Shown piece by piece: positions 16,553 through 48,116 of a stretch of 64,000 nucleotides of DNA. Under the pieces are notes generated by a model, which ran no database searches, was not told where the DNA came from, and was given only the letters and a program-made list of their open reading frames with translations. The translations under genes and the position numbers were made by a program. The DNA is taken from assembly GCF_014779765.1 (NCBI RefSeq), contig NZ_JACXZA010000001.1, positions 558,001 through 622,000 on the forward strand, in the 5' to 3' direction. The DNA comes from Paenibacillus terricola. Its GTDB lineage: Bacteria; Bacillota; Bacilli; Paenibacillales; Paenibacillaceae. The number at the start of each line of letters is the position of its first letter. Position 1 is the stretch's first letter.

Positions 16553-16573
16553 TTTTGTATATGCAACAATAAG

Positions 16574-17096
16574 AACAAAAGTTGTGACCCAAAAGGTCAC
16601 GCGACTCCCAGCACGCAGTAACCAAAACGCACCTCTGTCTCGCTACCGCATCAATACGCACGAACAAAAGTTGTGACACCAAAGGTCACACGACTCCAAG
16701 CGCGCAGTATCCAATACGAGTCTCTGTTTCGCCACCGCACCAGCAAGCTCGAACAAAAGTTGTGACCCCAAAGGTCACACGACTCTCAGCACGTAGTAAC
16801 CAAAACGCATCTCTGCTCTGCCACCGCACCAGCAAGCTCGAACAAAAGTTGTGACCCCAGAGGTCACACGACTCCAAGCACGTAGTAACCAAAGCGCATC
16901 TCTGTTCTGCCACCGCACCAGCAAGCTCGAACAAAAATTGTGACCCAAAAGCTCACACGACTCCAAGTACGCAGTAACCAAAAAGCATCTCTGCTATGCC
17001 ATCGCACCATCAAGCTCGAACAAAAGTTGTGACCCCAAAGGTCACACGACTCCAAGCACGCAGTATCCAATACGAGTCTCTGTTTCGCCACCGACC
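16574..17096. repeat. Six tandem copies of an 89-bp repeat
   Basis: Copies begin at 16574, 16663, 16752, 16841, 16930 and 17019, each starting AACAAAAGTTGTGACC or a close variant. The period is exactly 89 bases. Every unit contains a hairpin built on TGTGACC ... GGTCACA. The minus strand shows three overlapping open frames repeating a CSSLLVRW-like motif. Because 89 is not a multiple of three, each frame reads a different phase of the same DNA, and none has a ribosome site, so I treat the array as non-coding. It lies between a terminated lipoprotein gene and the 3-prime end of yhbH. Confidence 0.92.
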
Positions 17097-17271
17097 CCTT
17101 CCGGGGTCCCGGGGTTGGAAACCCCGGGGGTCCTCCCTTGCAGGGAGGATTTAGGTGGGTAGAACGCTTGATTTAGGTGGGTAGAAATTTTGGAATTAAG
17201 GTTTTAGAGAAATTTGATGTTTAGATTTATCTTGAAAAAAGTGGCTCCAAGGGGCACGGCCCCATGGAATC
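17093..17271. repeat. Cluster of GC-rich palindromes and a 17-bp direct repeat
   Basis: Directly after the 89-bp array come small palindromes: CCCGGGGTT / AACCCCGGG (17108-17128), CCTCCCT / AGGGAGG (17132-17148), and CCAAGGGGC / GCCCCATGG (17247-17267). GATTTAGGTGGGTAGAA occurs twice, at 17148-17164 and 17170-17186. The last palindrome could serve as terminator for yhbH on the minus strand; the rest has no recognised role. Confidence 0.7.
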
Positions 17272-21080: not shown

Positions 21081-21087
21081 ATGAAAT

Positions 21088-21132
21088 AAAGGCCGAGCCT
21101 TGAGCAGATCATCTGTTCAAGGCTCGGCCTTT
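21088..21132. terminator. Bidirectional terminator
   Basis: A long stem AAAGGCCGAGCCTTGA / TCAAGGCTCGGCCTTT serves the GGDEF-EAL gene and the converging lipoprotein operon. Confidence 0.88.
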
Positions 21133-21149
21133 GCAGTAATTCATACGTA

Positions 21150-21608
21150 CTAACCAATCGCGTATTCTTTCCAGACTAATTGCGCGATAGAGCTAACAAT
21201 CCAGATTTCGTCCTTTTTAGTCAATAGTATTTTGTATACCGTTTGATCTTCGGTTACGACGGCCAGAGCACGATACTTTTCGTTCGACGTTTCATCAATT
21301 GTCTGATACGACTCGATTTGTTTGTTTAATTCGTTCTCCACATAGGAGATGAGGACCTGTTTATAATCCTGCGACTCCGGCGAATTCTTCATCTCCAACA
21401 ACTGGTTATCGGTATAAGTTACAGCATCGTAGTCGTCAATCTGCTTCAATCTGTCTAGGAGAGAATCGCGGTCTTTCATTAAATCTGGATGGACAGTGTA
21501 CGCTGCTTGAACTTCTTTCTGCTCGTTGTCGAGTGAGCATGCACCAAGTGATCCAACAATAAGCGCGACTAAACATAAACGTATCATGATTGCTGAAAGG
21601 CTTTTCAT
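21150..21608 (-). CDS. Small lipoprotein of unknown function
   Basis: A 152-residue protein with a lipoprotein signal and lipobox LGAC (Cys24). The mature part is charged, with helix-forming stretches (DRDSLLDRLKQIDDY) and a C-terminal half resembling a small NTF2/cystatin-like fold (KYRALAVVTEDQTVYKILLTKKDEIWIVSS). That fold guess is weak. A GAGGTGA ribosome site precedes the ATG. It is the last of three minus-strand genes for exported proteins (22930 down to 21150) and lies 28 bases after its neighbour. No function is assigned. Confidence 0.75.
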   Translation of the reverse strand: MKSLSAIMIRLCLVALIVGSLGACSLDNEQKEVQAAYTVHPDLMKDRDSLLDRLKQIDDYDAVTYTDNQLLEMKNSPESQDYKQVLISYVENELNKQIESYQTIDETSNEKYRALAVVTEDQTVYKILLTKKDEIWIVSSIAQLVWKEYAIG

Positions 21609-21636
21609 GTGATCTCACCTCGATTCTGCCATTGCC

Positions 21637-22317
21637 TTATGTTTCTTTCTTTGATTTTATGAATAATTCTTTTTGTTGTTCATCATTTTTTATCTGTTCT
21701 TGTTGTTCAGCGCTTATATGTCCTTGTTCAAATCCGAAGCGTTTCATGATTTCATATTCTAGATTTTTGTTGTCGATCCCGGAGAGTTCGTCTGCAGTAA
21801 GGTAAATGCCGGATGTTACCTCTGCGCATTCGTTGTTTTCACATAACATCTCTTCAGGACTCCAACGATCTGGAGCATCTTTAAAATGTTTTTCGATTAC
21901 TGTCGGATCTACGATAAAGATCCCTAGTTGCTCCTTGCTAGGGGTATCTATGATCCTATCTAGTTTTTTATTCATCTTCCCCGAGTAGACAGGATGTGCA
22001 TTTCCATCATCCAATAAAAAAGGGGTGAAAGAACATCCTTTTACTACTTCAAATTGCTCTTTTGAGTAGCCACTGTCCTTCCATTTTGCATGTTTCTTAA
22101 GTTGTCCTTCTAGTATGCTATTTGTACTGTTAATTACCTTTTCTGATAATGATTTACTAGAAGATGTTTGAGTATAATCTCCAATGCAAATTGATATTTT
22201 GTCTCGATTAGATGTTAAGGTGGCTCGGTTGGTGAATTTGGAATGTATTTCATCTGAGTGAGAATGATTATCCTCTTGTCCATTAGATAAAGACTCTGTA
22301 ACTGCTGAAAGTAACAA
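21637..22317 (-). pseudogene. Headless exported-protein gene (unknown family), 5-prime end displaced by inversion
   Basis: The open frame codes for about 220 residues of an unknown, charged, Ser/Lys/Glu-rich protein with four Cys residues. It has no good start: the frame opens right after a TAG at 22321-22323, the only early start is TTG at 22315-22317, and no ribosome site precedes it. The missing start and signal peptide appear on the opposite strand at 22341-22475. If bases 22304-22441 are inverted, the two halves join in frame at GTT to give a secreted protein of about 255 residues with a proper GAGGTG site. So the gene is interrupted as it stands. Whether that is permanent or phase-variable cannot be told from one sequence. 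Confidence 0.7.
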
Positions 22318-22441
22318 AAGCTAATATTGAGGTGAATATGATGAATAGAAAAACACTTACTTATTTGTTGGTAGCACTCGCTGTCAACGTCCTTCTAGGA
22401 GCTACAATCTATGCAAAAGACAGCCAAGCTCATGCTGCCTT
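22304..22441. other. Putative inverted 138-bp segment
   Basis: The segment is bounded by AACT (22300-22303) and AGTT (22442-22445). Inverting it restores an in-frame signal peptide to the downstream minus-strand gene. It also gives the upstream gene a C-terminus AESNKS and a TAA, six bases before a TTGAGGTG ribosome site. Two independent reading frames becoming sensible at once is strong internal evidence for inversion. No longer flanking inverted repeats were found. Confidence 0.75.
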
Positions 22442-22475
22442 AGTTGGCCATGCTGGATTAGTTGCGTGGCCATAA
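22341..22475 (+). pseudogene. Orphan signal-peptide ORF (displaced 5-prime end of the 21637-22317 gene)
   Basis: A 44-codon frame on the plus strand, with GAGGTG at 22329-22334 ahead of ATG 22341 (a second ATG lies at 22338). The first 34 codons are a typical secretion signal: MNRK, a long hydrophobic core, then AKDSQAHAA as a likely cleavage region. The last ten codons run antisense through the 3-prime end of the neighbouring gene and end at TAA. It makes little sense alone, but becomes the N-terminus of the headless gene if the 138-bp segment is turned over. Confidence 0.65.
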
Positions 22476-22930
22476 GCATAATGAGTATGCCCGCTAACTG
22501 AAGTTGGACTGTAACGTTTTACGCAGTTCGTACTACAGTCGATTACTGGCGTAGTCCCACCGCTAAAATCTTCTGGATTATCTAACACATAATATCTGAA
22601 TTCGTAGATGGACAGTATGGCAGATGTCATATCTGAGCAATTCTGGCCTCCGGAAGCTGCAACAAAATCAATTTTACCATTATTTAGTTGATCCCAGCCG
22701 TCATCACTATTGTATAAAACGGTTTTTAGTGTATCGATAGCTGTTGTGTAAGTTACTCTTGATGTATTTTTGACATCAACACAAAAAGATTCACTTTCTG
22801 TCGAACTGTGAATAGTTGAAATGCGTCTTTCAGGACTGTAAGGATGGCTAGCAAGGACGGGGCTAATTTGTAACAACATTACAATAAGTAAGATGATGCT
22901 AGTAAAGATCTTGAAAAATGTTCCTTTCAT
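22430..22930 (-). CDS. Secreted protein of unknown function
   Basis: About 166 residues with an N-terminal signal peptide (MKGTFFKIF, hydrophobic core, cleavage probably after VLAS). The mature part contains several Cys residues, in SFCVDV, GQNCSD and VIDCSTNC. The ATG at 22930 follows AGAGGT at eight bases; a TTG three bases earlier is ignored. No family is recognised. The last three codons (KAA) and the TGA lie inside the putative inverted segment; in the other orientation the protein would end in PTAESNKS. It heads a three-gene group for exported proteins. Confidence 0.7.
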   Translation of the reverse strand: MKGTFFKIFTSIILLIVMLLQISPVLASHPYSPERRISTIHSSTESESFCVDVKNTSRVTYTTAIDTLKTVLYNSDDGWDQLNNGKIDFVAASGGQNCSDMTSAILSIYEFRYYVLDNPEDFSGGTTPVIDCSTNCVKRYSPTSVSGHTHYAYGHATNPAWPTKAA

Positions 22931-23364
22931 CAATAATTACCTCTTAATTTTTAACTAGGTGCCCTTTCTGGAATTGAATCTTGGCAGTTGATGACTATTT
23001 GGAATTGACCCTCCGTTCCATTCCACTCTTCTAGCGGTTCTAAAAAATATCTGAATGTAAAAACAATATAAGATTAACCTATTTTTCCCTTTTTGAGGAG
23101 TAGATGGATTGATATTTGAGCAAATTTTAAGAAAAGTTAATATTCAATTTGCTTGAAGGTTGAATCTTTGAGATTGAACATACGAAATATGAAATCGCTT
23201 AGGAAATGGTCAAGAACTGAAGCGTGAAGGGAATTGTATGAAATATCGAGGATACAAGAGCCGATTCATTACTGAATGGGCTCTTGCGGCTTTAACGGAT
23301 CAATCGTTTCTTCATCGGTAACGTCAACCTATTTTTATCCAGGTAGTCGACTCAATTGTCTTTG
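22931..23364. other. Intergenic region without a gene
   Basis: AT-rich DNA between two minus-strand genes. The only clear structure is a stem CAAGAGCCGATTCA / TGAATGGGCTCTTG at 23256-23286, without a following T-run. It must hold the promoter of the exported-protein genes, but no convincing -35/-10 pair was found. Confidence 0.6.
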
Positions 23365-31868: not shown

Positions 31869-32125
31869 TATTGCAATACCAAGCCCCTCGCTAGCTGATA
31901 GCGAGGGGCTTTTTGCTGCGGTTACGTAGGAATGGAAGCGGGAAGAGCATAAAAGTGTTAAAGCGTGAAAGGCGAAAAGAGAAAAAAGAGAAAAACATAA
32001 AAACATTAGCCGCTGCGCGGCGGCAACAAGATTCCGAACGTTCCGCTTCTCTTCGCGAATTCCACCTGCGGTGGGCAGCAAAAAGCCCCTTGCCTAGAGA
32101 CGGCTCGGGGTTTGGTATTGCAATA
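31869..32125. repeat. Widely spaced 19-bp inverted repeat at the edge of the tail module
   Basis: TATTGCAATACCAAGCCCC at 31869-31887 is repeated as its reverse complement at 32107-32125, with one mismatch. It brackets about 220 bases with no convincing gene. It marks the boundary between the suf operon and the phage-derived block. The enclosed DNA is purine-rich with a small GCCGC/GCGGC hairpin. Confidence 0.75.
31881..31914 (+). terminator. Terminator of the suf operon
   Basis: AAGCCCCTCGCTA / TAGCGAGGGGCTT stem followed by TTT. Confidence 0.9.
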
Positions 32126-32150
32126 AATAAGAGTGGAGCAGGTGGCGAGT

Positions 32151-32693
32151 TTAACGTAGGGCAAAGACCTCGGCAACGCGAAGCGGTTCGAAGTAGATGA
32201 TGTAGCGATCACCGATCATTGTGAACAGTCCGTACTTATCACGGTATTGGTCAAGGGCAGATTGTAAGAATGGTTCCGTTACACCTAAAAAGTCTGCAAG
32301 TTCATATCGTCCTTTGATACGAGCGTTATAAGCATCAACGAGACGCTCCAACGGAATTAACCGCTGATAAGCCCATCGTCTGGCGCGGAGTTCTTGTTTT
32401 CGGTTCACTGTATCCTGTTGGTCGAGTATATCGCCCGATGAGGTGTGGTAATGCCCAAGTTCTTCGGCCAGCACACAGGCTTTCTCGGCTGTGGTTTGGA
32501 GCGATTGATTAATCCAAATCGTACCGTCGCCATATAAACCCTTGATGGAAGAGACCATAGGGCGTTCCTGAATATCGATTCCGCACTGCGCCGTATCTTT
32601 CAGCAAGTACTCGTATTCGGTAGCCTCATTCTTGCGGTTTTCGTTTGGATCGGATATAAGCTTTGAAGCGCTCAATTTCTTCGCGTTCCTCAT
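32151..32693 (-). CDS. ImmA/IrrE family metallopeptidase
   Basis: Predicted zinc protease that cleaves the neighbouring Xre repressor to induce the element, as ImmA does for ICEBs1. The frame contains the variant active-site motif VLAEELGHYHTSSG (near residue 78), where EELGH replaces the usual HELGH, a form common in phage-type ImmA proteins. The C-terminal region includes LADFLGVTEPFL, typical of these proteins. The start is uncertain; ATG 32693 is used, overlapping the repressor gene by some 68 bases in another frame. Confidence 0.8.
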   Translation of the reverse strand: MRNAKKLSASKLISDPNENRKNEATEYEYLLKDTAQCGIDIQERPMVSSIKGLYGDGTIWINQSLQTTAEKACVLAEELGHYHTSSGDILDQQDTVNRKQELRARRWAYQRLIPLERLVDAYNARIKGRYELADFLGVTEPFLQSALDQYRDKYGLFTMIGDRYIIYFEPLRVAEVFALR

Positions 32694-33063
32694 CTGTCCA
32701 CTCTTCTCCATCATGATGTGCTGCAATCGTTTCGACCTCGCCGCTGTTTAAGCCTCTTGTCAAACGATGATTGCGCTCGAGTTCATTGGCTAATTCTGAA
32801 AGGAACGAATCAGTTGAAAAGTTATCTGTCAGCTTATCGGTACGATGATTTGCATCGCCGTCGGGATGCTGCAATCCAAGCAGAAAGTCGACGCTTACCC
32901 CGTGAAATTGAGCCAATGCCGCAAGCATGACATGGTCTGGGTTAGATATGCCGTTCTCCCATGCATTATAGCGAGCTCGCTTAACGCCAAGCGCATTTGC
33001 GACTTGTTCTTGCGTAAGCCGTCTATGGTTTCTTAAAGCTGAGATTCTTTGATTTAGATTCAT
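32626..33063 (-). CDS. Xre-type (cI-like) repressor of the tail module
   Basis: A 145-residue DNA-binding protein. The HTH_3 domain (residues 3-60) has ISALRNHRRLTQEQVANALGVKRARYNAWENG. The C-terminal part is acidic, and it probably handles dimerisation or ImmA recognition. The ATG at 33063 follows GAGAGGT. It sits next to five GATAA-N5-TTATC palindromes, which are its probable operators (inference), including one at its own promoter. Confidence 0.85.
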   Translation of the reverse strand: MNLNQRISALRNHRRLTQEQVANALGVKRARYNAWENGISNPDHVMLAALAQFHGVSVDFLLGLQHPDGDANHRTDKLTDNFSTDSFLSELANELERNHRLTRGLNSGEVETIAAHHDGEEWTDEEREEIERFKAYIRSKRKPQE

Positions 33064-33087
33064 GTCGGGTCTACCTCTCAAGCTAAT

Positions 33088-33277
33088 GATAATATTATTA
33101 TCAAAAATACATTGACGATAATATACTTATCAAATATAATCGGAATACAGCAAAACGATAAGCTTGATGCAGCTGTATTGATAAAAATATTATCTACACC
33201 AGCATATACGATAAAACAATTATCGTCAAGTGCGGCAACCAGCAAGTCTTTATGTTTGCTCTGATAAAAATCTTATC
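33088..33277. promoter_or_regulatory. Five-site operator array GATAA-N5-TTATC and divergent promoters
   Basis: Perfect half-sites occur at 33088-33102, 33117-33131, 33180-33194, 33210-33224 and 33263-33277. The last exactly fills the spacer of a rightward promoter (TTGCTC 33256-33261, CATAAT 33280-33285). The second overlaps a leftward TTGATA. This fits a lambda-like switch where the repressor shuts both directions. Confidence 0.85.
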
Positions 33278-33345
33278 AACATAATTGTTGAGTGGGATTG
33301 GTACGGCCAGTCTTTTTTTCAATCAAGGGAGGAGAGGATATTCCA

Positions 33346-33678
33346 ATGCGTGCAAGTGAAAGAAACTCAGGAAGATCGACGGAACAATCGGTGCTGGAGC
33401 TTAGATTGGTGCAAGAGGTTGAACGGCTTGGCGGAATGGCTCCAAGATGGCTGGGTGAACATAATCGTGCAGCTCCGGCTCGGATCGTCATCTTCCCGGG
33501 AGAGTGCACTTTATATGTCGTAATGAAGACGCCTGGTTGCAAATGTGATACGGCGCAGCTGCGATGGGTGAAACGGCTCCTTGGTCCCCGCTGCCGTCAC
33601 TATATAATCGATTCGAACGAAGGAATAGACCGGTTCATTAGGGACGTTAGCGTTGGAGGATTACATAAGAATCGGTAA
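33346..33678 (+). CDS. Degenerate VRR-NUC-like protein
   Basis: A 110-residue protein whose pattern follows phage VRR-NUC nucleases: VERLGGMAPRWLGEHNRAAPARIVIFPGE, then a strand ending VVMK, then QLRWVKRLL and a terminal strand YIIDSNEGIDRFI. In active members the loop normally carries Asp before RIV and the next strand carries Glu-x-Lys; here these positions read PARIVI and VVMK. So the nuclease is probably inactive (inference from remembered family pattern). The ATG follows GGGAGGAG. It is the first rightward gene under the operator array. Confidence 0.6.
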   Translation: MRASERNSGRSTEQSVLELRLVQEVERLGGMAPRWLGEHNRAAPARIVIFPGECTLYVVMKTPGCKCDTAQLRWVKRLLGPRCRHYIIDSNEGIDRFIRDVSVGGLHKNR

Positions 33679-33755
33679 TTGCGTTTATCGAGTATTAAAT
33701 AATACAAATACAGCGGATAGCCGGTCAGAGGCTATTATAAAAGGTGGTTTATATT

Positions 33756-34400
33756 ATGAATCTTCAACAATCAAGTAATCATTCTTCTTATTATAAAATG
33801 CATGAAGCTGAAGCAATCGAACGGCTCCGCAGTTATAAGCGCATAATAGCTCGTCTTAAGGTTTTGGAGAACTATTCGGTAGGTGCAGGGATCACGGTGA
33901 GCCGGATGAATCAGGACGATCATCTGATGGATTTGCATCGTAAGCTGCGTGCGATGCCGACTTATATGTATCTGACGAATCGAGAGCAGGTGTTGGAAAC
34001 AACTGCACATGCGTATTTAACCGACTATCCGGTTGGTACGAAAGCTCAGCTTGCGGCGATACCGCGAACGGCTGCAGATCCCGGGGATGCACAGGCTCTA
34101 AGGGAAATTCGTCAAAAGATTGAGAAGGTCATCGAGGCGCGTACTGGGAATCGGGAGGGCTATGAGGGTGTACTGGATCGATTGAGCGAATTTCAAGATT
34201 TGGAGAATGAGCGCGATCAGATCGATGCGGGCTTGGAGGCCTTGGAAAGCTATAAGCCGGATTATGCTTTTCTGCTTCGACTGCGGTACGTCGAAGGTTT
34301 GGAGATTGTGGAGGTCGTCGAACGAATGCAGACTTCGAGACGTACGTTCGAACGGAGCCGACCGAAAGCTCTGTACGAATTTAGCAGGCTATCTATGTAG
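33756..34400 (+). CDS. Sigma-like late regulator of the tail module (Xpf/RinA/ArpU-type)
   Basis: A 214-residue protein, largely helical. The C-terminal 50 residues (YAFLLRLRYVEGLEIVEVVERMQTSRRTFERSRPKALYEF) resemble sigma region 4 or RinA/ArpU late regulators, with a helix-turn-helix that would contact a -35 element. By analogy with Xpf of PBSX it probably switches on the tail operon. AAGGTGG precedes the ATG at 33756. It lies just before the 146-bp repeats, which may be its targets (inference). Confidence 0.7.
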   Translation: MNLQQSSNHSSYYKMHEAEAIERLRSYKRIIARLKVLENYSVGAGITVSRMNQDDHLMDLHRKLRAMPTYMYLTNREQVLETTAHAYLTDYPVGTKAQLAAIPRTAADPGDAQALREIRQKIEKVIEARTGNREGYEGVLDRLSEFQDLENERDQIDAGLEALESYKPDYAFLLRLRYVEGLEIVEVVERMQTSRRTFERSRPKALYEFSRLSM

Positions 34401-34410
34401 CGTTAAAGAG

Positions 34411-34785
34411 GGCAGGCGGTAAGCTGGCGGAGCAAAGGCGTAGTAAAGCGTGTCAACCCGTGATAAGATGCTAGTATGAAAACAATGTATACGAGTTAGA
34501 AGCCACCCGAAAAGGTGGCTTTTATGCATGTTACAAGGTAGAAGATCGCGGTTGTCGGCAGGCGGTAAGTTGGCGGAGGAAAGGCGTAGTAAAGCATGTC
34601 AACCCATGATAAGATGCTAGTATGAAAACAATGTATACGAGCTAGAAGCCACCCGAAAAGGTGGCCTTTACGCTTGTTACAAGGTAGAAGATGGCAGTTG
34701 TCGGCAGGCGGCAAGATGGCGGAACGAAGGCGTAGTAAAGCGAGTCAACCCGTGGTAAGATGCTAGTATGAAAGCATGTATACGA
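34411..34785 (+). repeat. 146-bp tandem repeat, 2.6 copies, each with promoter-like and terminator-like parts
   Basis: Units start at 34411, 34557 and 34703 with GGCAGGCGG. Each contains AGTAAAGC-N-GTCAACCCGTGATAAGATGCTAGTATG followed by GTATACGA. Units 1 and 2 then have an AGCCACCCGAAAAGGTGGCT-type hairpin with T-run (34501-34524 and 34647-34670). Unit 3 runs into a different terminator at 34792-34817. The region has no plausible gene. Confidence 0.88.
34501..34524 (+). terminator. Terminator in repeat unit 1
   Basis: AGCCACC / GGTGGCT stem with CGAAAA loop and TTTT tail; an equivalent hairpin with GGTGGCCTTT lies 146 bases further on. Confidence 0.7.
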
Positions 34786-34791
34786 AATGCC

Positions 34792-34817
34792 AAGGTCGTC
34801 CAATCGGACGACCTTTT
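34792..34817 (+). terminator. Terminator after repeat unit 3
   Basis: AAGGTCGTCC / GGACGACCTT stem with AATC loop and a T-run. Confidence 0.85.
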
Positions 34818-34840
34818 CTGTTTTAAATGAAAGCAAGTTC

Positions 34841-34877
34841 GAGGGCCCTGGCTGAGACTGCCGGGGCCCTCTTATTT
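34841..34877 (+). terminator. Terminator-like hairpin before the tail operon
   Basis: GAGGGCCC / GGGCCCTC stem with an internal mismatch loop, followed by TTATTTT. A small CCGGCA / TGCCGG hairpin follows at 34879-34892. Transcription of the tail genes must start after it or read through. Confidence 0.7.
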
Positions 34878-34908
34878 TCCGGCAAATGCCGGGTGAGAAG
34901 TGAGGTTG

Positions 34909-35046
34909 ATGCAGATGCAGATGGAGCGAATCACAAATCAGCTAACAATTCGGAAGCTGAGAGACCCTCCTGTTAGTAGGATCGCCGAAGGCGAAGAGGC
35001 TAGCATGTGGACGCAGCAGAGCTGCGGACTGGCGAATCGGAGGTAG
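34909..35046 (+). CDS. Small ORF at the head of the tail operon
   Basis: 45 codons from ATG 34909, with GTGAGG just upstream, ending three bases before the GTG start of the tail terminator gene. The product is basic, with IRKLRDPPVSRIAEGEEASMW. No homologue is recognised. The tight spacing to the next gene and the ribosome site favour real expression, but the short length leaves doubt. Confidence 0.5.
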   Translation: MQMQMERITNQLTIRKLRDPPVSRIAEGEEASMWTQQSCGLANRR

Positions 35047-35049
35047 AAG

Positions 35050-35517
35050 GTGGAGACGGTTATCGATATACGCGATTCGGTGGTTGGTTTGTTAGCGGAG
35101 TCATTTCCCGGCACGGTGATCTACACCGAAACGATGGGCCAAGAAACAACTCCCTGCTTTCAGATGACGGATTGTTCCGTAACGTACAACCGAATTATGG
35201 GACGTCGCTATGCACGTGTATATGCTTTCGACATTCGGTATTTCCCTTCCGGATCCTCTCCCGAGCCTATCCAAGATGCCAGTCAAATAGCAGAAAGGCT
35301 TGCAGAAGTGATGGAGTATATCCCACTGGGGAGAGGGAAGCTTCGCGGCTCGGGGATGCGGCACGAGATGGTCGAAGGCGTAATGCACTTTTATTTCGAG
35401 ATTCGAATGCATGTGTTTAAGAAGCAACAATCGGCTCCTAAAATGGCGGCGATGGACATGGAAGGAAGGATCAAAAATGAACAAAGCACCAACGAGTGGG
35501 AAGATAGCATCGGTTGA
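35050..35517 (+). CDS. Phage tail terminator-type protein (DUF6838-like)
   Basis: A 155-residue protein at the position of the tail completion/terminator gene, ahead of the sheath. It has GTVIYTETMGQETTPCFQM and RRYARVYAFDIRYFP, in keeping with tail terminator proteins that cap the tube. It starts with GTG after GGAGG. The 3-prime end overlaps the next small gene by 41 bases. The assignment rests on position and general pattern. Confidence 0.6.
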   Translation: METVIDIRDSVVGLLAESFPGTVIYTETMGQETTPCFQMTDCSVTYNRIMGRRYARVYAFDIRYFPSGSSPEPIQDASQIAERLAEVMEYIPLGRGKLRGSGMRHEMVEGVMHFYFEIRMHVFKKQQSAPKMAAMDMEGRIKNEQSTNEWEDSIG

Positions 35518-35668
35518 AGGATATGGCAAGCAGCAGATGATTGCTTCGAATCGATTCAGCGCTCAGCACAAAGATGTGTTGGCAGCTGTGTTAACGGATG
35601 GAGAATCGTACACAATCGACGCGGCATTGCGTCGTATTCAACAATTTGAGAAAAGGTCGGTGAAGTAG
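35477..35668 (+). CDS. Small tail-operon protein (XkdJ position)
   Basis: A 63-residue protein starting at ATG 35477 after GGAAGGA, inside the previous gene. It contains SNRFSAQHKDVLAAVLTDGESYTIDAALRRIQQF, a helical pattern that is common in the short gene just before xkdK-type sheath genes. It ends one base before the sheath start. Function unknown. Confidence 0.65.
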   Translation: MNKAPTSGKIASVEGYGKQQMIASNRFSAQHKDVLAAVLTDGESYTIDAALRRIQQFEKRSVK

Positions 35669-35669
35669 A

Positions 35670-36986
35670 ATGGCAGGCGGAGTATGGACAACTCAAAACA
35701 AGGTGCGTCCAGGCATCTACATTAATTTTGTAAACGATGGCGGGTCGATTGGTGTAATGGGGGAAAGAGGTACGACATCCATTGCTCTTCCTTTATCTTG
35801 GGGACCGGCGAAACAATTGCTTCGGATTGAAGCGGGAGATAACGTCAAAGACCTTCTGGGCTACGATATGGCTTCCCAGCAACTACTGCTTGTACGAGAG
35901 GCATTGAAGCGCGCATCTACACTACTCCTTTACCGCCTCAATGTCGGTACTAAGGCCAGCGCCGTTATTGGTGCATTGACGGCGACCGCGGTTCATGGCG
36001 GAGAGAGAGGTAATGATCTGTCCGTTATCGTACAAGCAAACATTGATGATAGTACGAAATTCGATGTTACGACGATGCTGAGCGGCGAAGCGATTGAGAC
36101 ACAGACGGTCTCTACGGTGGATGAGCTGAGATCGAATCAATGGGTGAGCTTTAGTGGTACCGGCACTCTGACAGCAACGGCGGGGGCAGCCTTGGCAGGC
36201 GGCAGTGATGGCAGCGTAACGAACGCGGATCATACGGATTTTCTGTCGGCGTTGGAGCTGGAAGATTTCCAGACAGCTGCACTCTCCGCTACGGACAATA
36301 CGCTTAAAGGCGTGTACGCTGCATTCGCAAGACGACTGCGTGAATCGGAAGGGAAGAAGATTCAGGTCGTATTGGAGAATTATCCGTTAGCCGATCACGA
36401 GGGTGTCATCAGCGTGAAGAACGGCGTCATTCTGTCGGACGGCACAAGACTGACGGCTGCGCAAGCGACAGCTTGGGTTGCAGCAGCGACTGCCTCGGCT
36501 GGCGTTGCTGAGTCACTGACATTCCAAAGCTATGACGATGCGGCAGATGCGCTGCCTCGTTATACGAATTCGCAGACGATTGCTGCACTTGAAGCGGGTG
36601 AGTTTGTTTTCACGGCGAGCAATGGTCAGGTTATCGTCGAGCAGGACATTAACAGCTTGACAAGCTTCGGAGGCGACAAAGGGAAGTCCTTCCATAAAAA
36701 TCGGGTTGTGCGAGTGCTGGATGGCATCGGCAACGATATGAAGCGTATTTTCGAACAATATTATCTTGGCAAAGTGAGCAATAACGCTGATGGGCGCAAT
36801 ATGCTCAAGTCCGAGATCATTACGTATTTGACCAGTCTGCAGGATTCGAATGCGATCCAGAACTTCGATCCGCAAACGGATATTACCGTCCAGCAAGGCG
36901 CCGATTCCGACAGCGTTACTGTTGAAGCAGGCATTCAGCCAGTCGATAGCGTTGAAAAAATCTACATGAAAGTGAAGGTGAAGTAG
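35670..36986 (+). CDS. xkdK: Contractile tail sheath protein (XkdK-like)
   Basis: Main sheath subunit, 438 residues. Sheath features include the N-terminal RPGIYINFVND, GERGTTSIALPLSWGPA and the conserved C-terminal half with FEQYYLGKVSNNADGRNMLKSEIITYLTSLQ. Its presence shows the tail is contractile. It is followed after one base by the tube gene, as in PBSX. Confidence 0.92.
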   Translation: MAGGVWTTQNKVRPGIYINFVNDGGSIGVMGERGTTSIALPLSWGPAKQLLRIEAGDNVKDLLGYDMASQQLLLVREALKRASTLLLYRLNVGTKASAVIGALTATAVHGGERGNDLSVIVQANIDDSTKFDVTTMLSGEAIETQTVSTVDELRSNQWVSFSGTGTLTATAGAALAGGSDGSVTNADHTDFLSALELEDFQTAALSATDNTLKGVYAAFARRLRESEGKKIQVVLENYPLADHEGVISVKNGVILSDGTRLTAAQATAWVAAATASAGVAESLTFQSYDDAADALPRYTNSQTIAALEAGEFVFTASNGQVIVEQDINSLTSFGGDKGKSFHKNRVVRVLDGIGNDMKRIFEQYYLGKVSNNADGRNMLKSEIITYLTSLQDSNAIQNFDPQTDITVQQGADSDSVTVEAGIQPVDSVEKIYMKVKVK

Positions 36987-36987
36987 G

Positions 36988-37455
36988 ATGTCATACATGC
37001 GTGCTACAGATACAATCAATGGTCAGGAAGGACGTGCCTACGCGAAGATTAACGGGCAGGTCGAAGAGATGTTCTACATCAAGTCGCTTGAAGCGACTAT
37101 CGAGAAAGAAAAAGCGGAAATCAAAACATTGGGCAGACGAGGCACACAGCATAAAGCAACGGGCTGGTCTGGCAGCGGCAGCATGACGATCTACTATGTA
37201 ACGTCGAAGTTCCGTGAATTGATGCTGAAGTATATTCAGAGAGGCGTCGATACTTATTTCGATATTCAGATCGTGAACGAAGACCCGAACTCCTCGGTCG
37301 GTAAACAGGATGTCACGCTCAAGGGCGTCAATCTCGACAAGGTCATCATCGCGAAGCTCGATACGGAAAGCGAAGCGCTGGATGAAGAAATCGAGTTCAC
37401 GTTCGAAAGTGTCAGCATGAACGATAGGTTCGTTCCGCCAACGCTGGGATTGTAA
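36988..37455 (+). CDS. xkdM: Tail tube protein (XkdM-like)
   Basis: A 155-residue inner tube subunit with GQEGRAYAKINGQVEEMFYIKSLEATIEK and GRRGTQHKATGWSGSGSMTIYYVTS, the DUF2001/XkdM pattern. Order sheath-tube-chaperone is the normal PBSX order. Confidence 0.92.
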   Translation: MSYMRATDTINGQEGRAYAKINGQVEEMFYIKSLEATIEKEKAEIKTLGRRGTQHKATGWSGSGSMTIYYVTSKFRELMLKYIQRGVDTYFDIQIVNEDPNSSVGKQDVTLKGVNLDKVIIAKLDTESEALDEEIEFTFESVSMNDRFVPPTLGL

Positions 37456-37482
37456 TCATATTCAATAGGAGGTTTCAACTTT

Positions 37483-37908
37483 ATGGCAAATGATTTGAGT
37501 GCATTTTATGCGCAAAATGCAGCAGCAGTAGAAGCCGAGACGTTCATCGTCTCGGATCGGTTTCGCGACAGTGAGGGCGCGCCAGCAGCGTGGAAACTGC
37601 GGAGCATGACAGAGGCGGAGAACGAGCAATGCCGCAAATCGGCAACGCGCAAAGTGAAGGGCAAGAACGGCCAGCAGTCGGTGGAAACAAACCCTGACGA
37701 ATACTTGGCCAAACTGGTTGTTGCAAGTGTCGTTTTCCCGAATTTGAAGGATGCCGAGCTGCAGCAGTCTTACGGTGTGCTTGGGGCAGAAAGCCTTCTG
37801 CGAACAATGCTCCGTCCTGGCGAATACGCTGGCTTGGTCGGCAAGGTGCAGGAGCTTAATGGCTTCGATCGCGATATGAACGATTTGGTTGAAGAGGTAA
37901 AAAACTGA
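37483..37908 (+). CDS. xkdN: Tail assembly chaperone (XkdN-like), zero-frame product
   Basis: A 141-residue protein with WKLRSMTEAENEQCRK and LLRTMLRPGEYAGLVGKVQELNGFD, matching XkdN-type chaperones that hold the tape measure during tail assembly. The last codons read GTA AAA AAC TGA and contain the slippery heptamer A-AAA-AAC (37899-37905). A -1 shift would add 57 codons. AGGAGG precedes the ATG. Confidence 0.88.
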   Translation: MANDLSAFYAQNAAAVEAETFIVSDRFRDSEGAPAAWKLRSMTEAENEQCRKSATRKVKGKNGQQSVETNPDEYLAKLVVASVVFPNLKDAELQQSYGVLGAESLLRTMLRPGEYAGLVGKVQELNGFDRDMNDLVEEVKN

Positions 37909-38078
37909 TCGAGGAGGGTGATAGCGAAGCCGTATATGCTTACTACGCCCTCCACGAATTAAATATATTGCCACATGACCTTATGCAGATGAGCCGCCTT
38001 CACAGGGCGGCCATCTATGCAATGATCGAGATACGAGTCAAGAAAGAAAGACAAGCTGCTAAATCACGCAAAAAGTAG
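37905..38078 (+). CDS. Tail assembly chaperone -1 frameshift extension
   Basis: 57 codons open in the -1 frame directly from the slippery site to TAG at 38076-38078. There is no start codon near the beginning (first in-frame ATG is at 37982). The product reads like chaperone extensions (YAYYALHELNILPHDLMQMSRLHRAAIYAMIEIRV) with a basic end. A six-pair stem GGAGGG / CCCTCC begins eight bases past the slip site. The fusion would be about 198 residues, analogous to gpGT of lambda. Confidence 0.78.
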   Translation: MIEEGDSEAVYAYYALHELNILPHDLMQMSRLHRAAIYAMIEIRVKKERQAAKSRKK

Positions 38079-38095
38079 CAAAGGAGGGTTGTACA

Positions 38096-40405
38096 ATGCC
38101 CACCATAAGCGTGAGCTTGCTAAACATCGATCAGCTCACATCTTCTCTTGGCCGAGCACAGAAGGTGATAAACCGCACCATAAGAGTTGCGGAACGTTTG
38201 CGGGAAACGCTGCAGAGGCCTCTGTCGATGAGCGCTGACACCGGACAGGCATTGAATCAAATGGAGCGGGCTCGAAGGCGGCTGCAAATTGCTAGGCCCG
38301 TCGATATCGGCGTTCGGATTGTGGTTCAGAATATGGGAGACATAAGAGCTGTCCGAAGGCGGATTGACGCAGAGCTCAGTACAATTCGGGCGAACATTCA
38401 GGTCACTCTTCCGACTTCGATTAATAGGATGTTCACCAATCTTCAACGACTTGTGATGCGAATGCAGGCCTCGATAAGACGGCTCAGCTCAATTAATGGT
38501 AATAGAGGTCAACCGCTGCCGGGACCAGACGCGGGGCTTGATCAAGATAATAGTGACAATGAATCAGAGCAATCCAATTCCACAAAAGGTAAGGGCGGCG
38601 CCCGAGTTAAAAACGTAGTCGGTTATCTGAAAGGAATGGCAAAAAGCTCTTTACTATTTGCCGGAGCGCAAATCGTACCTGCAGTTGCCGGCTCGATGGA
38701 GCAGCAGGATCTGAAGGATACGTTTATTGCACGTACAGGCAAGGAAGATGTCGGTACAGCGATGTTCGAGAAGTTCAAGCAAGAGGCGCTTGCGATGGGG
38801 CAGGATGTAACGCAGTCGCTTCAAGGTACGCTGTCGCTCTTCCCCGTTACACAAAATACCGATCAGCTGAGTCAATTTAATGAGGTGGCGGCTCACTTGT
38901 CGGCTTTCGATCTTTCAGGCGGCGGGATTATGGATGCTGCTTCTGCATTAAAGGAGGCTCTTGGTGGCGATGTTGGCTCACTTGCTGCTAGCTACAACAT
39001 ACCGGAAGCGGAGTTAGACAAGTTCAATATCGGCAGCTTTGGCCCTAGCAATATCGATGGTTTCCTGCAATCGCTCAATCAATTGATGGAACAGCAGAAG
39101 TTGGGTGATCAAGCTTATCAAACGAAGATGGCGAGCCCTGCAAATCAGGTAAAGACGTTGGGCAATAACGCAAAGTCGGCGTTGGCGGACGCGGGTGATT
39201 CAATCGTGCAATCATTATTACCAGTCGTTTCGATGCTTAACCAGATGTTTCAACAAGGACAAATACAAGCGTTCTTCCATGCAATGGGTACTGCAATTGG
39301 TTGGGTAACATCGTTACTGGCAGTATTAGTTCAAGGCGCTTTATGGTTTGGTGGAGTGATTGCGAACAATTGGGGTATCTTCAGTTCTGTTCTAGGGGGA
39401 ATTGCAGCGTTAATCGGTATGCTGCTCATACCAATGCTATGGTCTATGATTCCTCCATTGGCAGCGATTGTCGCCGAGTGGTTGTTGCTTAACTGGCCGA
39501 TTTTGGCGGTTGCAGCTTTTATTGGAGTTGTAATGTTCGTCTTGCAGAAATTTGGTGTAACTGCGGCAGATGTGATCGGTGCGATCGTTGGAGCGTTTAC
39601 TTGGCTTGGTGGCGTCATCTACAACTTGATTGCAGTCTGGTGGAATTATTTCGCTAGCTTCGCCGAATTTCTAAAAAACCTGCTTATTGATCCGACCTAT
39701 GCGATTCAAAAGCTATTCTATGATCTAGCAACGATGTTCGGAGGATATATGGTGAACATGCTGCGTAATGCCGAAGGCTTTGCTGGCGGATTCATGGAAA
39801 CGATTCTTGGCGCAATCAACGGCATATTGAAGGGCTTTAACTGGTTAAGCAAAAAAATTGAAAAACTTACCGGCGTCGATCTTGGTACAGTGGATCTCTT
39901 TGACACAACGAATGTCCATGCCATGAGCGAGCGTTTGCAAGGAATGCTAGATAAGCTTGAGAAACCTGTAAGCGACAAGTCGGTTGTCACGGTTCCTCGC
40001 ATGGAGATGAAGGACTTGAGCAACGAATACGCTTATGGAGCGAAGGCAGGCTCTTCGTTCGCCAATTCTTTCCACTATAAGAAGCCGAGTGTAGATAATG
40101 AAGTTTTGGACCAGTGGAATTCCACTCAGCAACCGATGGCCACGAACGGCAATCGTAACATTAACAAGGTTAACGAGGTCGGCAAAATCAATGACCAGGT
40201 AGACGTCTCCAGCGAGGATCTGCAGACGATGCGCGAGCTGGCGGAAATGCAAAACATTCAAAACTTCGTTACGCTGCAGCCGCAGTTGAGCTTCGGCGAC
40301 ACGCATATTCGTCAGGATGGAAGAAGCGTTGATGAGATCATTACGAATATCAAGACGCGCTTGCAGGAAGAGCTTGTATCGTCTGCACGGGGGGTATACG
40401 GATGA
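38096..40405 (+). CDS. xkdO: Tail tape measure protein (XkdO-like)
   Basis: A 769-residue protein that sets tail length and fills the tube. The N-terminal 130 residues are helical with Arg-rich heptads. Hydrophobic segments lie at about residues 400-540 (WVTSLLAVLVQGALWFGGVI, AALIGMLLIPMLW, FIGVVMFVLQKFG). The C-terminal part is polar. It is shorter than PBSX XkdO (about 1300), so the tail should be shorter (inference). It follows AAGGAGGG and overlaps the LysM gene by four bases. Confidence 0.88.
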   Translation: MPTISVSLLNIDQLTSSLGRAQKVINRTIRVAERLRETLQRPLSMSADTGQALNQMERARRRLQIARPVDIGVRIVVQNMGDIRAVRRRIDAELSTIRANIQVTLPTSINRMFTNLQRLVMRMQASIRRLSSINGNRGQPLPGPDAGLDQDNSDNESEQSNSTKGKGGARVKNVVGYLKGMAKSSLLFAGAQIVPAVAGSMEQQDLKDTFIARTGKEDVGTAMFEKFKQEALAMGQDVTQSLQGTLSLFPVTQNTDQLSQFNEVAAHLSAFDLSGGGIMDAASALKEALGGDVGSLAASYNIPEAELDKFNIGSFGPSNIDGFLQSLNQLMEQQKLGDQAYQTKMASPANQVKTLGNNAKSALADAGDSIVQSLLPVVSMLNQMFQQGQIQAFFHAMGTAIGWVTSLLAVLVQGALWFGGVIANNWGIFSSVLGGIAALIGMLLIPMLWSMIPPLAAIVAEWLLLNWPILAVAAFIGVVMFVLQKFGVTAADVIGAIVGAFTWLGGVIYNLIAVWWNYFASFAEFLKNLLIDPTYAIQKLFYDLATMFGGYMVNMLRNAEGFAGGFMETILGAINGILKGFNWLSKKIEKLTGVDLGTVDLFDTTNVHAMSERLQGMLDKLEKPVSDKSVVTVPRMEMKDLSNEYAYGAKAGSSFANSFHYKKPSVDNEVLDQWNSTQQPMATNGNRNINKVNEVGKINDQVDVSSEDLQTMRELAEMQNIQNFVTLQPQLSFGDTHIRQDGRSVDEIITNIKTRLQEELVSSARGVYG

Positions 40406-41088
40406 GTTATGGCATTTGGCTAAGCTGGAACAACCAGAAAGAAGGCTTCGATCTGCCCGTGCTGCCGGCTGAGATTGGTGTAAGCGTAAGTGGGGACGGA
40501 GGGGAGCACGAGGTGCAAGGCGGCGGCAAGATCAATGTCATCAAGAATCGAGGGCTGAAGGAATACAGCATCGAAAGCTTTTTCCCTCGCAAACCGAGTT
40601 TATTTATCCCCATCGTGCAGCCATATGTGAAAACTGAGTTTCTGCTCTCACCTAAACGTTATGTCGAATCCATTATGCGCTGGTGGGAGTCTAGATGGCC
40701 GATTCGCTTTGTTTATGTTGGGTCGACGATGCAGATCAATACACCAGTAAGCATTGAGTCGTTCGAGTGGCGGGAGTCCGGGGGAACGCCAGGTGATATC
40801 GAGTACAAGCTCAAGTTGAAAGAGTATCGGTTTTATTCAGCACAGCAGGTCAAGGTCGAGAACAACACAGTGAAGAAGTCAGCAGAGAAGCGAGTGGATG
40901 ATCGTGTACCTGCATCGACCTATACCGTTGTTTCAGGCGATTCCTTATGGAAGATTGCTCAGAGGGCGCTCGGTGACGGCGGCCGATGGCGAGAAATTCA
41001 GGCGCTGAACGGGATTACGGATGCTCAGACGAAGTCGCTTAAGATTGGAACGATACTGAAGCTTCCAGCGGTGAAGGCTAATGCTTGA
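40402..41088 (+). CDS. xkdP: LysM-containing tail protein (XkdP-like)
   Basis: A 228-residue hub-connecting protein. The N-terminal domain has LPVLPAEIGVSVSGDG and WWESRWPIRFVYV. A C-terminal LysM domain (about residues 172-224, TYTVVSGDSLWKIAQRALGD) may bind peptidoglycan or the hub. It overlaps both neighbours. Confidence 0.9.
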   Translation: MSYGIWLSWNNQKEGFDLPVLPAEIGVSVSGDGGEHEVQGGGKINVIKNRGLKEYSIESFFPRKPSLFIPIVQPYVKTEFLLSPKRYVESIMRWWESRWPIRFVYVGSTMQINTPVSIESFEWRESGGTPGDIEYKLKLKEYRFYSAQQVKVENNTVKKSAEKRVDDRVPASTYTVVSGDSLWKIAQRALGDGGRWREIQALNGITDAQTKSLKIGTILKLPAVKANA

Positions 41089-42049
41089 AATATTGATTGA
41101 TAACAAAAACGGGCGTGTCTGGGACGTTTCGCAAATTGCGAAAGATGTTTCTTGGAAGACGGTTCGCGTGGGGAAGCCTTCTGTTCTGGAGTTGTCTCTG
41201 GTAAACGATAGTGTCACCCAGAATCAGTTGTTTACCATTAATAACGGGGATGTTATACGTGTACGTTATGCTGGGCACAACGTTTTCTATGGCTATGTTT
41301 TCAAGCTGCAGCAGAACACAGAACAGATCATTAGTGTCACCGCGTACGATCAGATGCGATATTTGTTGAACAAGGACACCTATAAGTTCAAAAACATGGA
41401 GACCGGCGACATTATCAGGAAGATCGCTGCTGATTTCAAATTGAAGACCGGCACGATTGACGCTACTGGTTATTCTATTCCTTCGATGATGGAAGACGGC
41501 CAGACGCTGCTGGATATCATTGAGAAGGCGAATGCGCTGACCATAAGCAATTATGGCCAGTTTTTCGTGTTTTTCGACGACTTCGGCGCACTCTCTCTCC
41601 GGCGGGTAAGTCAGCTGCAGACCGACTTTTACATTGGTGACGGCAGTCTGTTGACCGGCTACGATTACGCGCAGGATATCGACAGTGATACGTATAATCG
41701 GATTAAGCTGTATCGCGACAACAAGGAGACAGGAAAACGTGATATCTACTTGGAGCAGGACAGCGCCAACGTTGCGCAGTGGGGCATGCTGCAGCTATAT
41801 GAGAGCATAGACGAGAACTTGAATGCTGCCCAGATCGAACAGAAGCTCTACCAATTAGCTCAATTAAAAAATCGCGAGCAGCGCACGTTATCCATCGATG
41901 CGATCGGAGATATTCGTGTTCGCGCAGGCATGTACCTGCCCATTGCGATCTCGGCGCTTGGCATCAAAGAGCTTATGCTCGCGGAAGAAGTGAAGCACAG
42001 CTTCGGCAGTGCAGAGCATAATATGACCATTACGTTAAGGGTGATTTAA
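41081..42049 (+). CDS. xkdQ: Tail hub protein (XkdQ-like)
   Basis: A 322-residue protein at the gp27-like hub position. It has VTAYDQMRYLLNKDTYKF, the region ADFKLKTGTIDATGYSIPSM and LSIDAIGDIRVRAGMYLPI, as in XkdQ proteins. It starts inside the LysM gene by eight bases. Confidence 0.87.
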   Translation: MLEILIDNKNGRVWDVSQIAKDVSWKTVRVGKPSVLELSLVNDSVTQNQLFTINNGDVIRVRYAGHNVFYGYVFKLQQNTEQIISVTAYDQMRYLLNKDTYKFKNMETGDIIRKIAADFKLKTGTIDATGYSIPSMMEDGQTLLDIIEKANALTISNYGQFFVFFDDFGALSLRRVSQLQTDFYIGDGSLLTGYDYAQDIDSDTYNRIKLYRDNKETGKRDIYLEQDSANVAQWGMLQLYESIDENLNAAQIEQKLYQLAQLKNREQRTLSIDAIGDIRVRAGMYLPIAISALGIKELMLAEEVKHSFGSAEHNMTITLRVI

Positions 42050-42050
42050 C

Positions 42051-42344
42051 ATGCTGGATGCGATTCGCAAGGCTGCAATGACTGCCGTGGAGGCGTCAAA
42101 TCCAGTCGCTTTTTTGTTTGGCATCGTAACTCAAATAAATCCGCTCGAGGTAAACGTTGATCAACGATTTACGCTCGATGCGGATTTTTTAGTTCAGACC
42201 GAAGCGACAACAGAGTTAAGGGTTAGGATCGGGCCCGCCGAGTATTTCATTCGTCGGCCATTGCAAGTTGGCGATCAAGTCGTGCTCGTCCGACTTCAGG
42301 GCGGGCAGCGATATTTAATCTTAGACAGAGTGGTGAGAGCATGA
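42051..42344 (+). CDS. xkdR: DUF2577 tail protein (XkdR-like)
   Basis: A 97-residue baseplate or spike-base component: FLFGIVTQINPLEVNVDQRF and VGDQVVLVRLQGGQRYLILDRV. The ATG follows the hub stop after one base. It overlaps the next gene by four bases. Confidence 0.82.
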   Translation: MLDAIRKAAMTAVEASNPVAFLFGIVTQINPLEVNVDQRFTLDADFLVQTEATTELRVRIGPAEYFIRRPLQVGDQVVLVRLQGGQRYLILDRVVRA

Positions 42345-42739
42345 TTCCGATCGGTGGACAGGTGACGACGGACAGCAATGAAGCGCAAGTACCATCTTTA
42401 ACCTGGAAGTTGGATTTTGACCGCGGCAAAGTGGTTGGTAAGACAGATGGTTTCGATGCCGTCAAGCAAGCGGCTTACAAGATTCTTCAGACCGATCGCT
42501 TCGCTTATCTCATCTATGATGCCAACTATGGCAGCGAGATGGCTGGGCTTATCGGGAAGAGTCCGTTATTGGTCGAGTCGGAGCTTCACCGCCAAATTCG
42601 AGAAGCATTGATAGAAGATGATCGGATTCACGATGTCTCGGATATGACGATTTCGATCGAAGGAGACGTGGCGTCGGTTGTGTTTACGGTAGTATCCATA
42701 TTCGGGAACTTTGAAGGGGAGGTGACGACCTATGTATGA
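42341..42739 (+). CDS. xkdS: DUF2634 baseplate wedge protein (XkdS-like, gp25 role)
   Basis: A 132-residue protein with LTWKLDFDRGKVVGKTDGFDAVKQAAYKILQTDRFAYLIY and a YGSEMAGLIGK motif, the XkdS pattern. It would be the sheath-initiating wedge piece. It overlaps both neighbours. Confidence 0.88.
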   Translation: MIPIGGQVTTDSNEAQVPSLTWKLDFDRGKVVGKTDGFDAVKQAAYKILQTDRFAYLIYDANYGSEMAGLIGKSPLLVESELHRQIREALIEDDRIHDVSDMTISIEGDVASVVFTVVSIFGNFEGEVTTYV

Positions 42740-43808
42740 GGCACAAACGGCTGATGCGATATTGGATCGGATGCTTGCGAGAGTGTCAGGAGACATCGAC
42801 AAGCGGCAGGGCTCCATCATTTATGATGCCTTGGCTCCGGCGGCAGCAGAGCTTGCGCAAATGTACGCGGAGATCGACGTGAACTACCGATTATCCTTCG
42901 CAGATACAGCCTCGGGGGAAGAATTAGCTCGGCGTACGGCTGAATTCGGAGTTAATCGGGAACAGGCTACTTTTGCCAGTCGCGAAGGGCGATTTTACGG
43001 AGCGGCAGATTCGCTGATCGATGTGCCCGAAGGCGGGCGATATTCGATTGGCGGCGTCATATTTGTCGTAGGATCACGTGTTGGGTCGGGGGTCCATACA
43101 CTCATTTGTGAGACAGCCGGTGCTGTAGGAAATCAACCGTTCGGTGTACTGCTGCCGATTCAATTCGTACCGGGACTTGTTCGTGCGGAGCTTGGCTTGG
43201 TGCTTGTACCCGGCGAAGATGAAGAAACGGATGATGCGCTGCGAAGGCGTTACTATGACGAGGTGAATAGCCCGGCATTCGGCGGCAATGTGGCGGATTA
43301 CAAGCAGACGATCAGTGCGATGGATGGCATTGGTGGACTGAAGGTATACCCGATATGGCAGGGAGGCGGGACGGTGAAATGTACGGTGATTGCGTCAGAT
43401 TGGTCCGTACCATCCGCTACGCTGATCAATACCATTCAGACGGCTGTTGATCCGACCGTCAATGCGGGTACAGGGAGAGGTTTGGCGCCGATCGGACATA
43501 AGGTAACGATTGCAGGCGTGAGCAGCAAGACATTGAAGGTAGAAACAACTGTTACGTTAGCAGGTGTGACCGTTGCCCAAATACAGGCTTCGGTTACGGC
43601 TGCGTTGGAGGCTTATATGACCGATTTAAGAAAATCGTGGTCGAATCAAAGTCAACTTGTTGTGCGGGTCGCTTTGGTAGAGGGAGCGATTCTCACCGTA
43701 CCAGGTGTGATTGACGTAACTGGAACCCGACTGAACGGCGTTGCTGGTAACATGACGCTTACGCAGGATGAGATTCCGTTGTTGGGGACGGTGACAATCA
43801 GTGGCTGA
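42732..43808 (+). CDS. xkdT: Baseplate J-like protein (XkdT)
   Basis: A 358-residue baseplate wedge protein. Baseplate_J features are YDALAPAAAELAQMYAEID, DDALRRRYYDEVNSPAFGGNVADYKQ and the C-terminal GVIDVTGTRLNG. It starts inside xkdS and ends inside the next gene, by eight bases each. Confidence 0.92.
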   Translation: MYEAQTADAILDRMLARVSGDIDKRQGSIIYDALAPAAAELAQMYAEIDVNYRLSFADTASGEELARRTAEFGVNREQATFASREGRFYGAADSLIDVPEGGRYSIGGVIFVVGSRVGSGVHTLICETAGAVGNQPFGVLLPIQFVPGLVRAELGLVLVPGEDEETDDALRRRYYDEVNSPAFGGNVADYKQTISAMDGIGGLKVYPIWQGGGTVKCTVIASDWSVPSATLINTIQTAVDPTVNAGTGRGLAPIGHKVTIAGVSSKTLKVETTVTLAGVTVAQIQASVTAALEAYMTDLRKSWSNQSQLVVRVALVEGAILTVPGVIDVTGTRLNGVAGNMTLTQDEIPLLGTVTISG

Positions 43809-44385
43809 TCGCGTATTAGGTTATTTACCACCGTTTTATAAGGAAATACAAGATTTTGTGGAGTTGTCGGATACGGAAAGCATGGAGCTTGAGAGTCTTG
43901 CTCAAGCCGTTCAGCGTTTGTATGCCGATCAATTCGTCACCACATCTGGAGCGGGCGCCATCGAGCGGCGGGAGGCCATGCTGGACATTCAAGCTAGTCC
44001 ATCGGAATCGCTGGAATTTCGGAGGCTTCGCATTCTGAACCGTTATCAGACGAAGCCTCCTTTCACTGCCCAGTATTTGCAGGAACGAATCAATTACATT
44101 GCAGGCAAAGGGAAAGCCGTTGTTTCCGTAGAGCCGAGCCTGTATCGGCTGACCGTTACGACGGCAATCGATGACGCACCGGTCTTCGGTGAAGTAGAGC
44201 GTACAATCGCGACCTTGAAGCCTGCAAATATGGGATACCGACAGCAAACGGCTATCGTGGATCGAATACGGCTGAAGGCGCGGATCGTCAGTTATGCGCT
44301 GGCTCGCAATACCCGTTTGGGGACTAGCTGGCGGCTTGGAGCAACACCGTTCGCGGAACCGGGAGCGGGGGTGACGGCAACTTGA
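43801..44385 (+). CDS. xkdU: DUF2313 baseplate protein (XkdU/YmfQ-like)
   Basis: A 194-residue protein starting with GTG at 43801. It contains YLPPFYKEIQDFVELSDTESMELESL, FRRLRILNRYQTKPPFTAQYLQERI and the end region ANMGYRQQ, typical of YmfQ/XkdU. It connects wedge and fibre. Confidence 0.88.
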   Translation: MADRVLGYLPPFYKEIQDFVELSDTESMELESLAQAVQRLYADQFVTTSGAGAIERREAMLDIQASPSESLEFRRLRILNRYQTKPPFTAQYLQERINYIAGKGKAVVSVEPSLYRLTVTTAIDDAPVFGEVERTIATLKPANMGYRQQTAIVDRIRLKARIVSYALARNTRLGTSWRLGATPFAEPGAGVTAT

Positions 44386-44660: not shown

Positions 44661-44667
44661 ATGCAGG

Positions 44668-47433: not shown

Positions 47434-47435
47434 GT

Positions 47436-47929: not shown

Positions 47930-47968
47930 GAGAATGCAGTAAAAGTGCTTTTTCTAAAGTGAACTCAT

Positions 47969-48005
47969 AAAACGAGCCTCTAGAATCGATTCTAAGGCTC
48001 GTTTT
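47969..48005 (+). terminator. Terminator between fibre and lysis cassettes
   Basis: AAACGAGCCT / AGGCTCGTTT stem with an inner AGAAT / ATTCT, ending in TTTT. A second hairpin with a T6 run (48074-48100, CTCGC / GCGGGG-type stem) follows. Confidence 0.75.
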
Positions 48006-48100: not shown

Positions 48101-48116
48101 TTTCGAAGGTGGGGGC

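Follow-up and report, generated by a model that had tools for sequence, protein, structure and literature searches.

A probable recent micro-inversion that parts an exported-protein gene from its start in a small Paenibacillus operon

In the window, i.e., the whole 64,000-nucleotide stretch of Paenibacillus terricola DNA that was analysed, an open minus-strand frame (gene B) is found apart from the start codon, ribosome site and export signal that appear to belong to it, and these lie nearby on the plus strand. The locus thus raises the question of whether a short segment has been turned around and, if so, whether it is still being turned or was turned once. The first-pass annotation proposed an inversion of 22304–22441 and offered either a phase-variable switch or a fixed micro-inversion as its nature. 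Of these two, the micro-inversion is favoured here: the locus very probably records a recent, one-off micro-inversion that was not site-specific, in a horizontally gained and decaying operon, while a switch lacks both end repeats beyond chance and a nearby recombinase of the two families searched. The micro-inversion, seen in one genome, is probably fixed.

Parts of the operon and their order in relatives

As shown in Table 1, three minus-strand genes, A, B and C, make up the operon, and the lipobox of gene C is presumably LGAC. Within its first 90 codons, the gene B frame holds a single start codon, TTG at 22317, from which the frame is open and upstream of which no Shine-Dalgarno match is present; apart from this TTG, the earlier statement that the gene has no start, ribosome site or signal peptide is confirmed. 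As assembled, and judged from its frame, gene B has no usable start. The orphan plus-strand signal peptide with its own ribosome site, also described earlier, was confirmed as a mini-ORF that begins at ATG and aligns with the start of gene B in Paenibacillus kobensis. The body of gene B shares 67% identity with P. kobensis B over 211 aligned codons, with no stop or frameshift, and the stretch encoding DKDSVTAESNKS matches the tail of gene A in the same relative, DINSVIAESNKS. The inverted part, of about 150 bp, covers the last 12 codons of gene A, the gap between A and B, and the start, ribosome site and signal peptide of gene B.

Table 1. Features of the A-B-C operon and of the rearranged segment, in window positions.
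Feature	Positions	Strand	Remarks
Gene A remnant	22430–22933	minus	167 aa; metzincin-like exported protein; signal peptide by eye; ends KAA
Gene B body	21637–22317	minus	lacks its start and signal peptide; alignment with P. kobensis B runs downward from about 22281
Gene C	21150–21608	minus	lipoprotein-like; frame open; also the operon's third gene in P. kobensis
Inverted segment, best estimate	22285–22436		ends uncertain within 22281–22289 and 22431–22440; from P. kobensis end-point scan, blastn and control inversions
Former 3' end of gene A, DKDSVTAESNKS plus TAA	22286–22324	plus	antisense overlap with the gene B ORF
Shine-Dalgarno-like site of gene B	22329–22335	plus	7-base match GAGGTGA; now points away from gene B
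Orphan signal-peptide mini-ORF	22338–22475	plus	45 codons; gene B start codon and export signal, followed by gene A antisense
Gene A deletion joint	22455–22475	minus	in-frame, 138 bp; near 22463/22464 by eye; about 27 bp from inversion end
Low-GC block holding the operon	21081–23364		2.28 kb; 38.4% GC vs 49.6% for the window

A search of 59 genomes, including that of the window itself, found genes A and B together in the latter, in P. kobensis NBRC 15729, which belongs to the same GTDB genus, and in Chengkuizengella marina. In P. kobensis, gene A has 221 aa and contains HETGHLLGLID; 18 bp further on comes a gene B that carries a signal peptide of its own. Four relative loci, from three genera, hold both genes: one in P. 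kobensis, two in Chengkuizengella marina and one in genome G512. All four have the collinear order A-B, and in each gene B lies 12–51 bp behind gene A and is equipped with a start and signal peptide of its own. Since all four are collinear, the order in the window is taken to be derived. The comparison with relatives that had been proposed earlier therefore came out in favour of the inversion model: the opposite orientation was found, and the rejoined protein has homologues.

Gene B is rare: it occurs in 2 of 394 genomes of the family and in 6 of 392 of an order-wide sample, the window's own genome being counted in both, and in 2 of the 25 genomes of the genus to which G512 belongs. In addition, a fragment of gene B was found in genome G429 and a marginal match (E 5.5e-4) in genome G026, and no further copies were detected in the window's own genome, in plasmids (E 1e-5) or in viral contigs. 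As a separate observation, inspection by eye shows that B is followed in the first Chengkuizengella locus (L004:2162-2947) and in G512 (L018:2373-3023) by a gene whose product is larger than, and different from, that of gene C.

Reality and ends of the inversion

On the evidence of alignment, the inversion is real and its ends differ from those placed earlier. The segment matches P. kobensis by blastn with an E value of 9e-15, on the strand opposite to that of its flanks; that is, a short segment is inverted relative to the outgroups between collinear flanks, and the event is of a known kind, a micro-inversion. When 63 × 43 pairs of ends were scored by alignment to P. kobensis, the top scores, 95–96.5, were reached at 22284–22287 and 22432–22436, and the uncertainty ranges of Table 1 are those covered by the 40 pairs that come within 6 points of this maximum. 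The 96.5 belongs to one pair, which is out of frame; the best in-frame pairs, 147–152 bp long, score 95, and the uninverted sequence scores 28.5. Control inversions of 152 bp, 136 in number and moved across the operon in steps of 12, were also scored. All 110 controls lying more than 160 bp away lowered the operon-wide score (best −33.5, median −85), while the model inversion raised it by 52; the other 26 touch or overlap the site, and gains, of up to 37.5, occur in five of them.

The earlier ends, 22304–22441, had been set between the tetranucleotides AACT at 22300–22303 and AGTT at 22442–22445, which are indeed present, and inversion between them does open the frames of both A and B. However, this pair of ends scores 60.5 in the scan against 96.5 for the best, and raises the operon-wide score by 17.5 instead of 52; the stretch 22286–22303, which it leaves unturned, matches the P. 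kobensis gene A tail at 13 of 18 positions (counted by eye). It had further been argued that both frames becoming normal in one step was unlikely by chance, but the two frames amount to a single condition, both being set by one modulo-3 sum. Of 78 × 55 end-point pairs examined, seven that are frame-compatible, including 22304–22441, are directly flanked by a 4-bp inverted repeat, and six of the seven give a gene B frame of at least 238 aa. AACT/AGTT therefore carries no weight as a repeat, such 4-bp pairs being common, and the ends built on it were rejected on alignment score and on this commonness.

One-off event or switch

The first alternative to be weighed is a phase-variable inverton, in which a recombinase would flip the segment reversibly, turning the export of B on and off and exchanging the end of A. 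Gene-spanning and intragenic invertons, the latter reportedly the subject of a paper by Chanin et al., resemble this locus in that orientation would decide whether one gene has its start codon and signal peptide and how the C-terminus of its partner reads; judged from the reading frames alone, orientation does alter coding here. The body of gene B is also undecayed, with no stop in its 211 aligned codons and with 14 changes found only in the window vs 15 found only in P. kobensis. Invertons are, however, looked for through their inverted repeats, as described in the available part of PMC11892184, and the ends of the present segment have none beyond chance. Between 51-bp stretches at the two ends, exact inverted repeats reach 4 bp and no more, and 1680 of 2000 random pairs reach at least 5; gapped searches gave a score of 4 within ±15 bp, equalled or exceeded by 1939 of 2000 random pairs, and a score of 10 in 91-bp stretches, where 392 of 2000 were as good. 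With the ends placed to within about 9 bp, inverted repeats or microhomology at the junctions amount to 4 bp at most.

Recombinase-driven inversion is the subject of a review, as far as its available text goes (PMC11868660). The search for a nearby enzyme covered two recombinase families, PF00239 and PF00589. PF00239 has no match in the genome, although it is present in 10 of 14 control genomes; PF00589 has four matches, on contigs C10 and C11, and none on the 1.6-Mb contig that carries the locus. Moreover, no flip could undo the deletion in gene A, and a single orientation is seen across the four relative loci with both genes. A recombinase-driven inverton is accordingly considered very unlikely. 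A switch that works without repeats, controls the export of B and is still flipping back and forth is likewise given very little credence; if it were true, the intact frame of B would testify that the segment has often gone back to the orientation in which B works. The good state of gene B is explained equally well by an inversion that happened recently.

That the inversion is recent is suggested by the balance of changes between the two lineages. In gene B, the 14 and 15 lineage-specific changes stand beside 42 differing columns that are uninformative; in gene A, there are seven window-only and six P. kobensis-only changes, with 20 uninformative. Over the 42 gene B columns that are invariant in the outgroups, the window departs at seven and P. 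kobensis at nine; over the 25 columns of gene A that are invariant in three outgroup sequences, the window departs at six and P. kobensis at three, and this excess may be a first sign of decay or may be due to chance. The dN/dS values (0.037 for A and 0.066 for B, that of C not being computable) are not relied on, since synonymous sites are saturated, and for the same reason the inversion cannot be dated.

The inversion could also be confined to the assembled sequence or to one laboratory lineage, as one genome alone shows it and gene B is almost undecayed. Against such an artefact of assembly or culture, the locus is internal to a contig of 1.6 Mb and matches its own genome just once, and no inverted repeat is seen at its ends; the probability of an artefact is regarded as very small. 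A further reading takes the window order as ancestral or functional, B being translated from a different start, and the relatives as rearranged. It finds a foothold in the open frame from TTG 22317 but is scarcely credible, given that this TTG, the sole start codon within the first 90 codons, is without a ribosome site and that gene B of the four relative loci begins shortly after A with a start and signal peptide of its own.

Gene A deletion, mechanism and genomic setting

A recent one-off micro-inversion remains the preferred reading, and it is accompanied by a second lesion that the first-pass annotation had not mentioned. Gene A is 79% identical to P. kobensis A, and in the alignment 46 codons including HETGHLLGLID are missing from it. 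The zinc-binding motif HExxHxxGxxD is kept in all four relative loci and absent from the window copy, so its loss is assigned to the lineage of the window; gene A as assembled is without its predicted catalytic helix. The motif in the four relative loci likens gene A to the metzincins (matrixin M10, M43 and snapalysin-like), from which the window copy differs in lacking it. Further likeness comes from weak matches below curated cut-offs: P. kobensis A matches PF00413 (E 0.0024) and PF05572 (E 0.0062), and G512 A matches the models of the M6 domain (E 0.0013) and snapalysin (E 0.0052). The first Chengkuizengella gene A has no Pfam match, and the best match of the relatives' gene A among solved structures has an E value of 0.13.

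In scans of Pfam and NCBIfam, genes A, B and C gave no family match above the curated cut-off. Below it, P. kobensis B weakly matches BLYB, a family of hemolysin accessory proteins of Borrelia (E 0.02; 15.6 bits vs a cut-off of 25), and gene C of the window weakly matches TarH (E 0.0068; 16.8 vs 25.2). In gene A of G512 (L018:780-1484), residues 25–107 match AB5 toxin binding subunits far below cut-off, and no assignment was made.

The deletion joint lies about 27 bp from the nearer inversion end (23–32 bp given the uncertainty of the ends), and by a simple estimate over the 1784-bp operon the chance of such closeness is about 3–6%. From this spacing it is plausible that deletion and inversion were a single complex event. 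It has been reported, in the available part of the source, that template switching in replication can invert short stretches, and the yeast cases given there have arms of more than 9 bp and spacers of a few bases (PMC8604942). The present locus resembles template-switch micro-inversions in that a short segment is reversed between collinear flanks with an extra rearrangement nearby; unlike those yeast cases, it spans about 150 bp without repeat arms, and here inversion and deletion break two genes. A repeat-poor, replication-linked rearrangement is therefore suggested as the mechanism.

According to the proposed course of events, a three-gene operon encoding a secreted metzincin-like protease (A), an exported protein (B) and a lipoprotein-like protein (C) would have been gained horizontally; a one-off rearrangement that was not site-specific would then have flipped about 150 bp and cut B from its start, perhaps through a single template-switching event in replication that also produced the deletion in gene A; and the inversion would mark the onset of the decay of the operon. 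The case thus presents a bacterial micro-inversion of about 150 bp that is resolved to a few bases, with both broken genes still readable, and it illustrates one route of decay for an exported-protein operon that was probably borrowed. Pseudogene finders based on stops and frameshifts would presumably overlook such a case, because neither of the frames that are left is interrupted and what has gone is just the start of B. A paper on bacterial populations raises microinversions by way of mammalian work and envisages a similar approach for microbes; in its available text, the word otherwise occurs only in reference titles (PMC2483231).

As for the origin of the operon, the low-GC block lies between two conserved chromosomal genes. 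The comparison of this site covered G001, G002 and P. kobensis; judged from a neighbouring protein, G001 is the nearest of the five genomes of the same genus (88% vs 61–65%). At the site of the block, about 100 bp is found in G001 and about 200 bp in G002, also of the same genus; in P. kobensis the place is taken by about 1.3 kb of other sequence, and the operon is found elsewhere, with 38.4% GC vs 51.1% for the fetched stretch of its contig. The low GC content and the lack of the block in G001 and G002 indicate horizontal gain, and the operon was probably acquired in this way.

The window was also compared with G001 for other micro-inversions over about 37 kb of collinear sequence (blocks of at least 200 bp, E 1e-3), and none was found beyond eight minus-strand hits, of which six fall in a tandem-repeat array at 16573–17188, one of 50 bp at 31870 and the last off the diagonal. 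The array itself (16573–17093) consists of about six 89-bp units, most with a hairpin-like GTGACC...GGTCAC motif, which match no Rfam family at cut-off; it stands directly before a gene ending at 17272, and its match in G001 is on the other strand near the same place. Further along, about 18 kb (32037–50089) without a collinear match in G001 is probably a tail-like prophage element, with genes recognised by eye that we take to encode a sheath, a tape measure, baseplate proteins and a lysozyme-like protein, and near the start of this block a 146-bp unit is repeated 2.6 times (34411–34785).
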